A stretch of DNA of 64,000 nt from an uncultured Bacteroidota bacterium (GTDB lineage: Bacteria > Bacteroidota > Bacteroidia > Bacteroidales > UBA12077), in assembly GCA_913055635.1 (NCBI GenBank), contig CAJXLK010000005.1, positions 1 to 64,000 on the forward strand. Direction: 5' to 3'. The translations under genes and the position numbers were made by a program. Shown here in pieces: positions 24,350 to 55,027 of the stretch. Position 1 is the stretch's first letter. Every line of letters begins with the position of its first letter. The notes below the pieces were generated by a model. It saw only the letters and a list, made by a program, of their open reading frames with translations. It ran no database searches and was not told the DNA's origin.

Positions 24350-24611
24350 GGGCGGTAAATTTTTTTGTCTGCCAGGGAATAGTTTTTTAAATTTAAAGAA
24401 AATATGGCAAAATGCCATTGGGTTCATGTAGCTAAAGCCCGGTTCACGTTATGAGATTTGCAGAAAATTGGTAAACTGACAATGAATGATGGGTGGTCTT
24501 TCCCGGGTCCCTTTATTACTCATCCACTGGCTCCGGGTCCAGATGCAATGCTTCCTTTTAAGGATAAGCTAAATCAATGGATCAGGCGGGTTGCACGAAG
24601 AACATCAATCT

Positions 24612-25526
24612 ATGGATGAAAGCCAACTTGAGCAAGCCATTGGGATTTCTTCCCGGCAGGTTACAGCGGGCCTGGAAGAAGCCCTTCGACAGGCCCTTGA
24701 GGATATGCGGCGCGATCGCATCGTCCTGGGCCTTAGTGGAGGTCTCGACTCAGCCGTAGTTGCCGCCCTGAGCCGGCGGGTGCTGCCGGGCGAACGTATT
24801 TTAGCCCTGATCATGCCCGATCGCGAAACCCATCCCGTTAATACCGCCGATGCCGTTGATCTGGCCTGTCAATTGGGCATCAAAAGCCGCATTATTCACC
24901 TCGACCGATACCTGGAAAGCGCCAACGTGCACTTTCCGATCCCTTTCATCGGCTACTCCCTGAAATCCCGACTGGTGAAGATTTTTTACCGGAAGATGCG
25001 GCGCCGTACCGGCGAAACCCCTTTCCAGACTATACTGAAAGGCGGATGGGACAGTTCTTTTAGCCGTTATCTCAATAAAGGTACCGCCAATTATCGCTTT
25101 AAACATCGCCTCCGGTTGACCTTCCTGTATCAGGCCGCCGAAGAAATGAATGCACTGGCTGTCGGGGCTGCCAATAAAACCGAGTTTATGACCGGTTTTT
25201 TTGTGAAGTTTGGCATTGACCACAATGCCGATATCATGCCCCTGATGAACCTTTACAAAAGCCAGGTTTTTCAACTGGCTTCCGGATTGGAGCTGCCCCA
25301 AAGGATCATAGATAAAGCCCCGAGCCCCGATATGATCCCCGGCATTACCGATGAATTTGCTTTTGAATTGTCTTACCGTGAACTGGATATGCTCCTGTAT
25401 GCCCTGGAAAATGAGATCCGCCCCGAGGGCAGCCTGAGCGAAAAATACCGGTACGTACGCTCCCTGGTTGATTATTCGCACCATATGCGTCACATGATCA
25501 TCCCAAATCTTTTTGACCCCGCTTAG
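24612..25526 (+). CDS. nadE: NAD+ synthase (ammonia-type NadE family)
   Basis: ATP-dependent amidation of nicotinate adenine dinucleotide. The 304-residue protein (start ATG 24612) has the PP-loop SGGLDSAVV, the AANKTEFMTGFFVKFG strand equivalent to the NadE NKSE region, and the DIMPLMNLYKSQVFQLA and PSPDMIPGITDE motifs. No glutaminase domain is present. The middle (about 105-165) is longer and more basic than in short NadE proteins. The last three codons and the TAG stop (GAC CCC GCT TAG) lie within the first copy of a palindromic repeat array, so the native C-terminus has probably been altered. Confidence 0.85.
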   Translation: MDESQLEQAIGISSRQVTAGLEEALRQALEDMRRDRIVLGLSGGLDSAVVAALSRRVLPGERILALIMPDRETHPVNTADAVDLACQLGIKSRIIHLDRYLESANVHFPIPFIGYSLKSRLVKIFYRKMRRRTGETPFQTILKGGWDSSFSRYLNKGTANYRFKHRLRLTFLYQAAEEMNALAVGAANKTEFMTGFFVKFGIDHNADIMPLMNLYKSQVFQLASGLELPQRIIDKAPSPDMIPGITDEFAFELSYRELDMLLYALENEIRPEGSLSEKYRYVRSLVDYSHHMRHMIIPNLFDPA

Positions 25527-25723
25527 CGGGGTCATCATCCCCCCGCTTAGCGGGGTCACCATCCCCCCGCTTAGCGGGGTCATCATCCCCCGCTTAGCGG
25601 GGTCACCAATCCCTGCTTAGCGGGGTCAACATCATCCCCCGCTTAGCGGGGTCAAAATCATCCCCCCGCTTAGCGGGGTCAAAATCATCCCCCGCTTAGC
25701 GGGGTCAAAATCATCCCCCCGCT
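25517..25723. repeat. Tandem array of the palindrome CCCCGCTTAGCGGGG (8 copies plus a half copy)
   Basis: Copies lie at 25517, 25541, 25565, 25588, 25611 (one C to T change), 25637, 25664 and 25690. A half copy (CCCCGCT) is at 25717-25723. The period is 23-27 bp, with short AT-containing linkers such as TCATCATCC or TCAAAATCATCC. Each palindrome has 7-bp perfect arms around one T. The first copy contains the nadE stop codon. The linkers are far too short for CRISPR spacers. Confidence 0.95.
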
Positions 25724-27694: not shown

Positions 27695-29368
27695 ATGGAC
27701 ATGAAAATGTTTTGTTACCAGTGTCAGGAAGCAGCCAAAAATACCGGCTGCACCATAAAGGGATCCTGCGGCAAGTCAGCTGATGAATCGAACCTGATGG
27801 ACCTTTTGATTTATGTGGTCAAGGGAATATCCATTTATTCAAAAAAAGCCCGCGAACAAGGTTTGCAATATGATCAGGAGCGGGTGAACCGGTTCGTTTT
27901 CGAGGGGTTGTTTGCCACCATTACCAACACCAATTTTGATCAGGATGCCATAATAGAATACATCCGTCAGGGGTTGGATGTGCGCAACAGCCTCAGGCAA
28001 ACCCTTAAAGAACAGGGGCTGCAGTTTAGCCAGGATGAACTTCATGATGCGGCTACCTGGCAGGGATTCACCAAAGATGAATTCTTGAGAAAAGGCCATG
28101 CCATTGGCGTATTGGATACGGAAAATGAGGACATCAGGTCGCTGCGGGAATTGGTCACCTATGGGGTAAAAGGCATTGCTGCTTATGCAGAGCACGCCTG
28201 GAACCTAAACCACAAGAATGATGAGGTTTATCACTTCATGCAGGATGCCCTGGCTGCTACCACCGACGAGCGTCTTGGTGCGGATGATCTGATCAGCTGG
28301 GTGATGCAGACTGGAAAGCATGGGGTGGATGTGATGGCCCTGTTGGATCAGGCCAACACTTCTGCCTACGGCCATCCTGAGATCAGCGAGGTGAACCTGG
28401 GTGTGCGCAATCGACCGGGTATACTGATCAGTGGCCATGATCTCAGGGATATGGAAGAACTCCTGGAGCAAACCAAAGACGCCGGCGTAGATGTTTATAC
28501 CCACAGTGAAATGCTGCCGGCCAACTATTACCCGGCCTTCAAGAAATACGACCATTTTGTGGGCAATTACGGCAATTCCTGGTGGCAACAGAAGAGCGAA
28601 TTTGAAACCTTTAATGGCCCCATTCTGTTCACCACCAATTGCATCGTGCCCCCGAGCAAAAGCGCTACTTACCGCGGGCGGATCTATACCACCGGGGCAG
28701 CCGGCCTGGAAGGAGCCACCCATATCCCGGCCCGCAAAAACGGACAGCCGAAAGATTTTACACCCATTATCGAGCATGCCAAAAAATGCAACCCGCCCCG
28801 GGAAATTGAATCGGGCAAGATTGTTGGCGGCTTTGCCCACAACCAGGTGGAACAGCTTGCCGATAAAGTGGTGGATGCCGTTAAATCCGGGGCCATCAGG
28901 AAATTCTTTGTCATGGCCGGATGTGATGGCCGTTTCAAGAGCAGAGAGTACTATACCCGATTTGCCGAACAACTGCCCGAGGATACGGTCATTTTAACCG
29001 CCGGCTGTGCCAAGTACCGCTACAATAAACTGAATCTTGGCGATATTGGGGGTATCCCAAGAATCCTCGACGCCGGCCAGTGCAATGACTCCTATTCCTT
29101 GGCTGTCATTGCTTTAAAGCTTAAGGAAATATTTGAGCTCAACGACATCAATGAACTGCCCATCGAATATAACATTGCCTGGTATGAGCAGAAAGCCGTT
29201 ATTGTACTGCTTGCCTTGCTTTACCTGGGCGTTAAGAACATCAAGCTGGGCCCGACGCTGCCTGCTTTTCTCTCGCCCAATGTTGCCAATGTGCTGGTCG
29301 ACAAGTTTGGCATCAGCGGCATCAATACCGTCGAATCCGATATGGATGCCATGCTTAACCCCGCTTAG
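27695..29368 (+). CDS. hcp: Hybrid-cluster protein (hydroxylamine/NO reductase)
   Basis: Fe-S protein that reduces hydroxylamine in vitro and nitric oxide in vivo, protecting anaerobes from nitrosative stress. The 557-residue product has the N-terminal cluster motif C-x2-C-x8-C-x5-C ([15 protein letters not shown] then SCGK). This is the spacing of class I proteins from strict anaerobes; the enterobacterial class II spacing is longer. Hybrid-cluster ligand regions [24 protein letters not shown] and [10 protein letters not shown] are intact. The C-terminus ends MLNPA, where CCC GCT TAG comes from a palindromic repeat, so the array supplies the stop codon. Confidence 0.96.
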
Positions 29369-29545
29369 CGGGGGTAGTTTTTTCCCAACCCCGCTTAGCG
29401 GGGTCTGATGTTTAACCCCGCTTAGCGGGGGGTGGTTTTTCTCCAACCCCGCTTAGCGGGGTCTGATGCTTCACCCCCGCTTAGCGGGGTTCTCTTCAGC
29501 CCAAGCCAGGCGGGGGCAATATTTTCCCAATCCTGCTTAGCCGGG
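29359..29545. repeat. Second array of the CCCCGCTTAGCGGGG palindrome, at the hcp 3' end
   Basis: Full copies lie at 29359, 29389, 29416, 29447 and 29475, with a degenerate copy at 29531-29545 (TCCTGCTTAGCCGGG). Linkers of 12-16 bp alternate between T-rich (TAGTTTTTTCCCAA, TGGTTTTTCTCCAA) and CTGATG-containing types, so the array has a higher-order period of about 58 bp. The first copy holds the hcp stop codon. Confidence 0.93.
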
Positions 29546-30016: not shown

Positions 30017-30100
30017 TCCCGCTTAGTGGGGGGATAAAAAAACAAGACCCCGCTCATATGTTTGCGGGAGAAAAAACAGCCCTCGTTCAGCGGGGTCTGG
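30017..30100. repeat. Degenerate CCCCGCTTAGCGGGG cluster at the zupT 3' side
   Basis: Three decayed relatives of the palindrome are visible: TCCCGCTTAGTGGGG at 30017-30031, a split copy CCCCGC...GCGGG at 30048-30068, and CCTCGTTCAGCGGGG at about 30084-30098. The cluster lies between the cupin gene and zupT (convergent). Confidence 0.6.
30036..30068 (-). terminator. Probable terminator for zupT
   Basis: On the minus strand CCCGC (30064-30068) pairs with GCGGG (30049-30053) around a 10-base loop, followed by TCTTG and then a run of seven T residues (30036-30042). It lies 50 bp after the zupT stop and is built from a decayed copy of the palindromic repeat. Confidence 0.55.
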
Positions 30101-31667: not shown

Positions 31668-31862
31668 GAGGATTAACCGGCCGGGGGCTAATCAACCCGG
31701 AGGCTCATTCTGCCGAGGTGAACCCGCCCGGGAGTTAAACCGGCCGAAGGCTAACCCGGTTGGGGGTTAATTTTGCCGAGGTTAATTCGGCCGATGGTTA
31801 ACTCGGCCGATGGTTACCCCTGCCGACTGTACCCCTGCCGGGGGTTAAACCGGCTGGTGCCA
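31668..31862. repeat. Array of about twelve 16-bp repeats at the 3' end of the S46 peptidase gene
   Basis: Read on the minus strand the array consists of units close to GCCGRNTTAACCNYCG: for example GCCGGTTTAACCCCCG, GCAGGGGTAACCATCG, GCCGAGTTAACCATCG, GCCGAATTAACCTCG and GCCGGTTTAACTCCCG. It starts right after the peptidase stop codon, and the region around that stop (CAGTTAATGG) resembles a unit. Most units contain TAA or TAG. Period is 15-17 bp. Confidence 0.85.
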
Positions 31863-52568: not shown

Positions 52569-52675
52569 CCCCGCTTAGCGGGGTTCGGTTTTTTTCCCCC
52601 CCGCTTAGCGGGGTCCGGTTTTTTTCACCCCCCGCTTAGCGGGGTCCGGTTTTTTTCACCCCCCGCTTAGCGGGG
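52569..52675. repeat. Third array of the CCCCGCTTAGCGGGG palindrome (4 copies)
   Basis: Copies lie at 52569, 52599, 52630 and 52661, with a 30-31-bp period. The linker is TCCGGTTTTTTTCACC or close to it, so each plus-strand unit looks like a GC hairpin followed by seven T residues, a terminator-like shape. The fourth copy lies inside the 3' end of the dehalogenase-like gene (minus strand). Confidence 0.95.
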
Positions 52676-53564
52676 TTCGGTTTATCCATTGGGCCAGGGC
52701 CTGTCCGATGGCGTGGGGGTGATCTTCCTGGATAAAATGCAGTCCCCTGCCAATGTAGCGTGCCTCCAGGTTGTTGATATGGCTCATGCACCATTGCAGG
52801 GCACCACCATTGATGATGCCCCCGGGCTTTGCATAAAGCAGTAGTTTGGGAATAGAGCTCTGCTGGAGGTATTGACTGTACTGGTCAACGATGTGTTTCA
52901 TCTGGCGGGGGCGGCCATTAATGGGTATTTGGCGGGGCCATGAGAGCATGGGCTTTCGGTGAAGCGCCCTCCTGAAAGGCGCTTTGTAAAAGCCCTTTTC
53001 CTGTTGGGTCAGTTTCCGGACCACCAAACGGGGCATAATCACGTTTAAAAATGCATTCAGCCCGTAAATCATTGCTTCTCCAATGACCGGTTGCCGCAAA
53101 CCCCAGAAACCAAGCCGGTACCAGAAAGGCAGATCCCCCCAACGCCAGGGCCGGACAATGGATTCCATGAATGCCATACCCTTAATATTACCGGGGTTTT
53201 TCATGGCATAATAAAAACCCAGGGCCGAGCCCCAGTCATGAACCACCAGGATGATGTGCTTCAGCCCAAGCTTATGGACAAAGGCCTCCAGGTAATGATA
53301 GTGATCTGTGAAATGGTAAGACAGTGCCGGTTTGTCCGATGCACCCATGCCAATCAAATCCGGAGCAATACACCTTCCCTGGCCAACCAGATACGGGATG
53401 ATGTTTCTCCATAGATAGGAAGAGGTGGGATTCCCGTGGAGCAGCAAAATTGGATCCCCTTCGCCTTCATCCCGGTAGCGAATCCTGGAACCGTGAACCT
53501 CTAAACTCTTGTTGGTGTAAGAAGAATTTTCAAGGGGGCTAGAGATGTTTTCCTTTTCTGTCAT
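52656..53564 (-). CDS. Haloalkane dehalogenase-like alpha/beta hydrolase (HLD-II type)
   Basis: A 302-residue alpha/beta hydrolase. All catalytic positions of the DhaA/LinB group appear: Asn45 (LHGNPTSSYLW), nucleophile Asp110 and Trp111 (VHDWGSALGF), acid Glu134 (AFMES) and His276 (GLHFIQEDHP). They equal DhaA N41, D106, W107, E130 and H272 with one constant offset of four. This predicts hydrolytic cleavage of carbon-halogen bonds, though natural substrates of such enzymes are mostly unknown. The last residues (TPLSGG) are translated from a palindromic repeat copy, and the stop lies in the repeat linker. The N-terminus may be a few residues too long. Confidence 0.85.
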   Translation of the reverse strand: MTEKENISSPLENSSYTNKSLEVHGSRIRYRDEGEGDPILLLHGNPTSSYLWRNIIPYLVGQGRCIAPDLIGMGASDKPALSYHFTDHYHYLEAFVHKLGLKHIILVVHDWGSALGFYYAMKNPGNIKGMAFMESIVRPWRWGDLPFWYRLGFWGLRQPVIGEAMIYGLNAFLNVIMPRLVVRKLTQQEKGFYKAPFRRALHRKPMLSWPRQIPINGRPRQMKHIVDQYSQYLQQSSIPKLLLYAKPGGIINGGALQWCMSHINNLEARYIGRGLHFIQEDHPHAIGQALAQWINRTPLSGG

Positions 53565-54818: not shown

Positions 54819-54845
54819 CAGGACAGGGGCCTTAGTTTAAAAAAA

Positions 54846-55027
54846 CGGTTAAAAATGGATCCTTTTAACGGGGAAGTCAGCCCTGGGCAAATCGTTAAAA
54901 TCGATCTAGTTAACGGGGAAGTCATTCTTTATTAAAGCGTTAAAATGGATCTGTTTAACGGTGAAGTCTTTCTTTATCAAACGGTTATTAATGGATCCGT
55001 TTAACGGGGAAATAAGCCCTGGGCAAA
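54846..55027. repeat. Four 44-47-bp repeats between the two aldo-keto reductase genes
   Basis: Unit starts are at 54846, 54893, 54938 and 54982. Each begins with a small inverted repeat of the form CGTTAAAAtGGATCtgTTTAACG, followed by GGGAAGTC. Units 1 and 4 then have AGCCCTGGGCAAA; units 2 and 3 have TTCTTTATNAAA, so the array looks like a nested or block duplication. It starts 28 bp after the first gene's stop. Confidence 0.85.

Follow-up and report, generated by a model that had tools for sequence, protein, structure and literature searches.

The 15-bp palindrome CCCCGCTTAGCGGGG, which forms tandem arrays at gene ends in the 64,000-nucleotide stretch of Bacteroidales DNA analysed here (the window), is very likely (probability roughly 0.85) a REP element of a Bacteroidetes-type RAYT/TnpAREP system that lacks the GT[AG]G tag and has the fixed core CTTAG. 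The original prediction, made from the window alone, had read the arrays as a mobile or recruited 3′-end module and had named a terminator, a transcript stabiliser and a REP-like element served by a Y1 transposase as possibilities. The last of these readings is the one supported here: the draft genome from which the window comes (the source genome) holds a single RAYT gene, the same repeats lie at its flanks, and the association recurs in relatives.

Arrays of a 15-bp palindrome

The window holds 16 exact copies of CCCCGCTTAGCGGGG, distributed over three arrays (7 + 5 + 4; Table 1). With up to two mismatches allowed, we counted 35 strand-matches against 0.21 expected from dinucleotide shuffles, a number reached in none of 100 such shuffles of the window. 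The three arrays and the degenerate cluster described from the sequence alone are thereby borne out, and so is the divergence of linkers around a nearly invariant palindrome, with linkers alike within one array and different between arrays. The copies of array 1 are direct repeats separated by linkers of 8-12 bp. Arrays 1 and 2 begin within the 3′ ends of the NAD-synthase-domain gene and the prismane-family gene, respectively, and in both cases the TAG stop codon (25524-25526 and 29366-29368) lies in the first copy, while the alpha/beta-hydrolase frame reads through the nearest copy of array 3 to a TGA. The decayed cluster sits between a cupin gene (+) and a ZIP-transporter gene (-). The prismane-family gene has its closest matches in Bacteroidetes/Bacteroidales MAGs, two of them at 86 % identity. 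An Rfam search of the window returned tRNA only.

Table 1 Repeat arrays of the window and the genes that terminate in them
Feature	Position in window	Strand	Description
REP array 1	25517..25723	+	7 exact 15-mers (25517-25704), 1-mismatch copy at 25611, one partial copy
NAD synthase-domain gene	24591..25526	+	C-terminal ...FDPA*, terminates in array 1
REP array 2	29359..29545	+	5 exact copies (29359-29489) plus degenerate ones
Prismane-family gene	27695..29368	+	terminates in array 2; ...AMLNPA* vs ...AMLQ* in G002
Decayed REP cluster	30017..30100	+	copy at 30017 with 2 mismatches
REP array 3	52569..52675	+	4 exact copies; linkers 15-16 bp containing T7
Alpha/beta-hydrolase gene	52656..53564	-	terminates in array 3

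Two further kinds of tandem repeat were seen in the window. A 45-bp unit that itself contains an inverted repeat of the CGTTAAA...TTTAACG type is present in 3.7 copies at 54843-55011, in the intergenic region downstream of an aldo/keto reductase gene; the hairpin pattern written for it had no matches in 0.86 Mb sampled from the source genome and was too strict, missing the 54843-55011 array itself. Short 16-bp tandem repeats occupy positions 31765-31840, in the gap adjoining a peptidase S46 gene.

Copy number and dialects in relatives

A genome-wide search for the 15-mer, which had been proposed as a check, returned 540 exact copies of CCCCGCTTAGCGGGG in the source draft genome (4,083,064 bases, 77 contigs) and none of the reversed pattern, a copy number in the range of REPs (>100 per genome). 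The source-genome arrays comprise 1-9 core copies each. The exact sequence is nearly private to this genome: the 58 relatives searched contained two copies in total, both in the congener G002, and exact direct pairs of CCCCGCTTAGCGGGG were found neither in viral contigs nor in an 84,980-species collection, from which the own or near-identical genomes may be absent. A class-wide search for CGCTTAGCG doublets gave a single isolated match in one of 394 other genomes.

Related repeats of different sequence were found in other genomes. G002 carries 54 copies of CCGCTTAGCGG (1 for the reversed control), arranged in arrays of 12-bp period and in long hairpins with locus-specific outer arms, and G003 carries AGCGCTTAGCGCAGCGCTAAGCGCT-type pairs. 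For a common measure we used the doublet pattern GCTWAGC-N3-18-GCTWAGC with the reversed pattern as control; it occurs 88 times in the source genome (control 1), 104 times in G003 (1) and 40 times in G002 (0). A 25-nt dialect, GCTTAGCGGTTCnnAACCGCTTAGC and its variants, accounts for the doublets listed for G041 (10; control 8) and G034 (8; control 4) and for three of the four listed for G001 (control 1), and G048 has two doublets against one in its control. The element common to all dialects is CTTAG/CTAAG, around which three congeners (the source genome, G002 and G003) have three dialects. The clustered arrangement known from BIMEs and REPINs is present as well, as arrays in the source genome and as inverted pairs in G003.

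In G002 we also noted a dispersed element of ~60 bp, GCCCGTGTnTATAGCTAAAT, that is enclosed by a pair of CCGCTAAGCGG copies in each of three positions (L186 7468-7550; L204 5081-5155 and 5544-5650), as if inserted into the repeat. A 20-base pattern of this element was absent from all other loci among the 291 examined.

A single RAYT gene in the source genome

The Y1 transposase for which a search had been suggested exists: the source genome has one RAYT-like gene of the HUH Y1 type, which is broken over two contig ends. Contig C51 ends with the codons for its first 75 aa and C64 starts with those for its last 144 aa; the two pieces overlap by 25 identical aa. Over the first 75 aa, identity is 68 % to the ortholog of G003 and 61 % to that of G002. 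G001-G004 have one RAYT match each, and several other relatives have 2-8 (further homologs). The three genes upstream of the RAYT gene are common to the source genome, G002 and G003, and the gene downstream is common to the source genome and G002, while the G003 contig stops before it. One gene in the source genome, with neighbours conserved in G002 and G003, is what a single-copy RAYT that does not itself spread should look like.

Residues H52, H54 and Y127, the HUH motif and single catalytic tyrosine expected of a RAYT, are invariant across seven aligned RAYTs. All seven match the NF047646 model (REP-associated tyrosine transposase) at E<=0.001, with a best match of E 1.3e-16 and 60.8 bits, which lies under the curated cut-off of 80. 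The sole PDB sequence match is the TnpArep structure 4er8 (E 9.3e-5), and the predicted fold, although of low confidence (mean pLDDT 62), also has 4er8 as its best match, so that the protein is recognised as a RAYT by model, sequence and fold. The Pfam Y1_Tnp model detects one of the seven. An early result obtained with PF01797, according to which G002-G004 had no RAYT and the source genome a weak, truncated match, was overturned by a protein-query search; since this search recovered RAYTs that PF01797 had missed, PF01797 is too insensitive here.

The protein resembles subclass 2.6 of TnpAY1, a mostly Bacteroidetes group to which RAYT group 5 of Bertels et al. belongs; its genes are bordered by atypical structures that lack GT[AG]G and have further copies in the genome (PMC6006769). 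Shared features are the Bacteroidetes host, the SS motif and the tyrosine motif YIH[QN]NP, which reads YIHQNP in six of the seven aligned RAYTs and YIYQNP in one; a WQ motif was absent from view. In contrast to the published subclass (PMC6006769), the HUH motif is NHFH in all seven, where NH[LIV]H is given, and H54 and Y127 are 73 residues apart, where the published median HuH-Y spacing is 82.

CTTAG repeats accompany the RAYT

In the source genome, a palindrome array lies ~250 bp upstream of the RAYT gene (C51 480-580) and a second one ~720 bp past its stop codon (C64 1157-1300), beyond an open frame at 530-1057. We scanned both flanks of the RAYTs automatically for hairpins, over at most 450 bp and less at contig ends, and left a 65-aa RAYT fragment of G014 (no hairpin) out of the flank counts and the tree. 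A CTTAG hairpin was found on at least one side of nine of the 11 RAYTs of the clade and of none of the nine RAYTs outside it, six of which carry another hairpin instead, lacking CTTAG and with at least 12 bp of stem. The two clade members missed by the scan are those of G002, which has a CTTAG array on one side only that the doublet pattern misses too, and of G016, with CTTAG motifs and no clear hairpin. According to PMC2817692, two inverted REPs always flank a RAYT. Here, the scan placed hairpins on both sides in G003, G024, G008, G009 and G012, and inspection by eye did so for G014 and G021; a single side was occupied in the source genome (within 450 bp), in G002 and in G022, where only 118 bp of downstream sequence exist, and G016 is ambiguous. 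In a tree of 20 RAYTs (the source genome represented by its C-terminal piece, flanks labelled by hand, G002 and G016 labelled CTTAG) the CTTAG-flanked rows form one side of a branch with support 80/77, and none of 500 shuffles scored as low.

Furthermore, in six relatives taken together, 14 of the 19 CTTAG doublets of the whole genome lie at the RAYT (G008 2/2, G009 3/3, G024 2/3, G012 4/5, G014 2/3 and G022 1/3). Elsewhere in the clade the fractions are 0/1 in G016, 3/104 in G003, 0/40 in G002 and 0/0 in G021, whose RAYT has a flanking CTTAG hairpin though the genome has no doublet; in the source genome, 1 of the 88 doublets is on C51 and 6 are on C64. At least two doublets were found in 13 of 59 genomes, all with a RAYT homolog, which 16 of the other 46 genomes also have; none of the 30 genomes lacking a RAYT homolog reached two. 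The association is significant by Fisher's test (p=1.7e-5; p=2.5e-4 without the genus; p=0.99 for the reversed-pattern control), a test over 59 genomes that ignores shared ancestry and treats related genomes as independent. In the source genome, G002 and G003, the RAYT flank carries the dialect of its own genome. The RAYTs examined in G001 and G034 have other hairpins at their flanks, although both genomes hold CTTAG doublets.

Some RAYT homologs have flanking repeats of other kinds. The diverged RAYTs of two further congeners, G001 (L264) and G004 (L263), have CGGTCnGACCG palindromic repeats on both sides, possibly a second REP type, and those at L247, L248, L251, L252 and L253 have perfect or near-perfect hairpins of ~30-47 nt that differ in sequence and lack CTTAG.

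Hairpins without a foot tag

The 27 distinct 25-nt hairpins collected from the source genome, G001, G002, G034, G041 and the RAYT flanks have 97.8 % of their cells paired. The outer seven bases on each side are fixed by the GCTWAGC pattern or by choice, so that covariation is informative at the four apical pairs only; over the set, 33 cells were changed on both sides compared with 9.4 in shuffles (none of 500 as high), and the covariation score was 0.311 compared with 0.108. In many of these hairpins two CTTAG arms are opposed with a T.T mismatch. In the minimum-energy RNA fold of the window arrays, many copies likewise pair with one another and leave the centre base unpaired. This resembles the REP/BIME system of E. 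coli (4er8; PMC8266576), in which a single HUH-Y1 RAYT stands beside extragenic, clustered REPs with mispaired stem positions and a bulge in the stem is needed for activity. Unlike there, no GTAG foot is found here, and what stays constant is CTTAG, either as the apex of the 15-mer or within the stem, where it carries a T.T mismatch. Within 0-2 nt of the 15-mer, GTAG, GTGG and CGTC are absent from all 306 copy-strands examined. The missing foot counts against a classical REP, yet it agrees with the published subclass 2.6, whose members, like the RAYT here, are flanked by untagged structures with copies elsewhere in the genome (PMC6006769).

Position relative to genes and stop codons

Placement was assessed in 0.86 Mb of the source genome, with genes called by a simple codon-usage script instead of a standard gene finder. 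The 46 clusters in this sample occupy 26 tandem, eight convergent and nine divergent gaps, one lies inside a called gene and two lie at stretch edges, so that the repeats are extragenic, as REPs are. All three window arrays touch a gene end, as the original prediction had claimed for every array; the nine clusters between divergent genes show that this does not extend to the larger sample. The predicted 3′-end bias is real, with 21 of the 26 arrays in tandem gaps nearer to the 3′ end of the upstream gene (p=0.0025), and it recurs in G002 (19/20) and G003 (14/15), which have one and no divergent cluster, respectively. In the source genome, however, divergent gaps are about as densely occupied as the others (0.22 clusters per intergenic kb, compared with 0.25 in both tandem and convergent gaps). 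In 21 of the 26 tandem gaps the first copy reads CTTAG on the coding strand; this count is restricted to the source genome because palindromes of the form CTTAG...CTAAG, as in G003, always show CTTAG first.

The idea that insertion leaves a gene terminated, through TAG on one strand and TAA on the other, holds for few genes. Nine of 607 source-genome genes have their stop codon inside a repeat copy, in each case as ...PA-TAG in the same frame and orientation, and none there ends in a TAA of the repeat. In G003 there are three such genes among 380 (two TAG, one TAA) and in G002 none among 263. As a side observation, the nine called proteins of the source genome end in a repeat-encoded tail ...PA, mostly DPA or NPA.

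The strong hairpins and the 3′-end bias in three species would also fit palindromes that act as intrinsic terminators or mRNA 3′-end stabilisers and are kept at gene ends by selection, without mobility. Some copies are textbook bidirectional terminators, such as the one at L203 of G002, a symmetrical structure whose stem is preceded by A6 and followed by T7 and whose place is taken in the source genome by an unrelated ordinary terminator, and individual repeats may well terminate transcription. As a general function, however, termination is not supported by the T-tract counts: a T5 run lies within 12 nt of at least one copy in just 9 of 39 3′-proximal arrays of the source genome, 3 of 25 in G002 and 4 of 31 in G003, so that the combination of GC hairpin and transcript T-tract is not the rule. 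The T-tracts of array 3 are on the wrong strand for the preceding gene, opposite to the alpha/beta-hydrolase transcript, and selection at gene ends also leaves the divergent clusters, the 540 identical copies and the linkage to the RAYT unexplained. We therefore regard this explanation as improbable.

Orthologous positions across species

CTTAG repeats lie after the prismane gene in the source genome, G002 and G003 (L101), with a different sequence in each, and the gap between the cupin and ZIP-transporter genes is occupied by a REP in G003 but holds no REP in G002. Among ortholog pairs of the source genome and G002, two positions are shared, four are occupied in the source genome only, six in G002 only and 60 in neither (p=0.13); for the source genome and G003 the numbers are 2, 4, 6 and 75 (p=0.09), and for G002 and G003 there are four shared, one G002-only, six G003-only and 54 empty pairs (p=0.0014), with two of the four shared cases contributed by the pair of genes bordering a single gap. 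The stretches of G002 and G003 had mostly been selected for the repeats they contain, so the tables do not represent random sampling. We rejected a general conservation of positions, two of the three tests being not significant. The repeat positions thus show turnover with some shared sites. For the two patterns that had been named as speaking against a mobile module, copies scattered regardless of gene ends and the same arrays in all relatives, the outcome was mixed: some positions are shared with relatives and most are not, and the sequences differ, so that neither pattern describes what we find.

Discussion

We infer that the RAYT mobilises the CTTAG palindromes. The enzyme would nick and rejoin single-stranded CTTAG hairpins and thereby seed new copies, and a seeded copy would then multiply in place together with some flanking DNA, by tandem duplication and strand-switching, giving arrays with private linkers. 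Selection would remove intragenic insertions and leave copies in gaps, often right at stop codons, where a copy with CTTAG on the coding strand could itself provide the TAG. Two adjacent 15-mers can act as the two arms of one longer hairpin in which CTTAG meets CTTAG with a T.T mismatch, the form also taken by the hairpins at the RAYT, so that an array of n palindromes would offer up to n-1 overlapping RAYT-type hairpins.

We tentatively go one step further, to a proposal to which we give somewhat less than even odds. This RAYT lineage may read the CTTAG/CTTAG duplex with its T.T mismatch in both arms instead of a 5′ foot tag, and the nearly self-complementary core may chain adjacent copies into overlapping substrates, so that arrays would grow by themselves and the outer arms would be free to change between species. 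The series from the g2 relatives, whose hairpins lie almost exclusively at the RAYT, to the 540 copies of the source genome would then represent one system at different stages.

Slippage and strand-switching at quasi-palindromes probably shape the local arrays, as the locus-specific linkers, the half-units and the locus-specific outer arms that lengthen the stem suggest. As the whole explanation, with replication alone making the arrays and no transposase involved, this is very improbable, for it can neither put the same 15-mer at ~200 unlinked loci (extrapolated from 49 clusters in 0.86 Mb) nor produce species dialects that are the same at the RAYT flanks as elsewhere in each genome. Selected sites for a chromosome-organising or regulatory protein, with an incidental RAYT link, would account for a constant core with drifting arms, and several proteins have been reported to bind REPs elsewhere (PMC2817692), but the two doublets of G008 and the three of G009, all at the RAYT, are too few for a genome-wide protein site and make this explanation barely credible.

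The CTTAG repeats share features with several described systems. REPs of the GTAG and CGTC superfamilies lie mostly downstream of coding regions, near stop codons in the species shown, and their large clusters are tandem repeats together with flanking DNA segments (PMC3733652); the 3′ placement and the tandem clusters with flanking DNA are alike here, whereas neither tag is present and the core is CTTAG. The g2 relatives resemble the TIRtrons/TIRYT described in the same paper, in which a RAYT has private inverted repeats and few further copies, while in the genus of the window the number of repeat copies has grown into the tens or hundreds. The system fits best as a variant of the untagged Bacteroidetes REP/RAYT kind (subclass 2.6). 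In our literature search, RAYTs were nowhere linked to CTTAG repeats. Three features look new, namely the CTTAG core, the series of dialects and the large tandem arrays: we met none of them in PMC6006769, and a text search for CTTAG in that paper and in PMC3733652 gave no match, although the supplementary motif table of PMC6006769 may list CTTAG.

In the literature consulted, recognition of REPs has been worked out on tagged (GTAG) systems of Proteobacteria. The Bacteroidales series presented here, with one syntenic RAYT in several species, a fixed five-base core and arms that drift and yet covary, is a natural mutagenesis set for substrate recognition by an untagged RAYT. It also bears on the expansion of repeats, from a few copies beside the enzyme to hundreds genome-wide.
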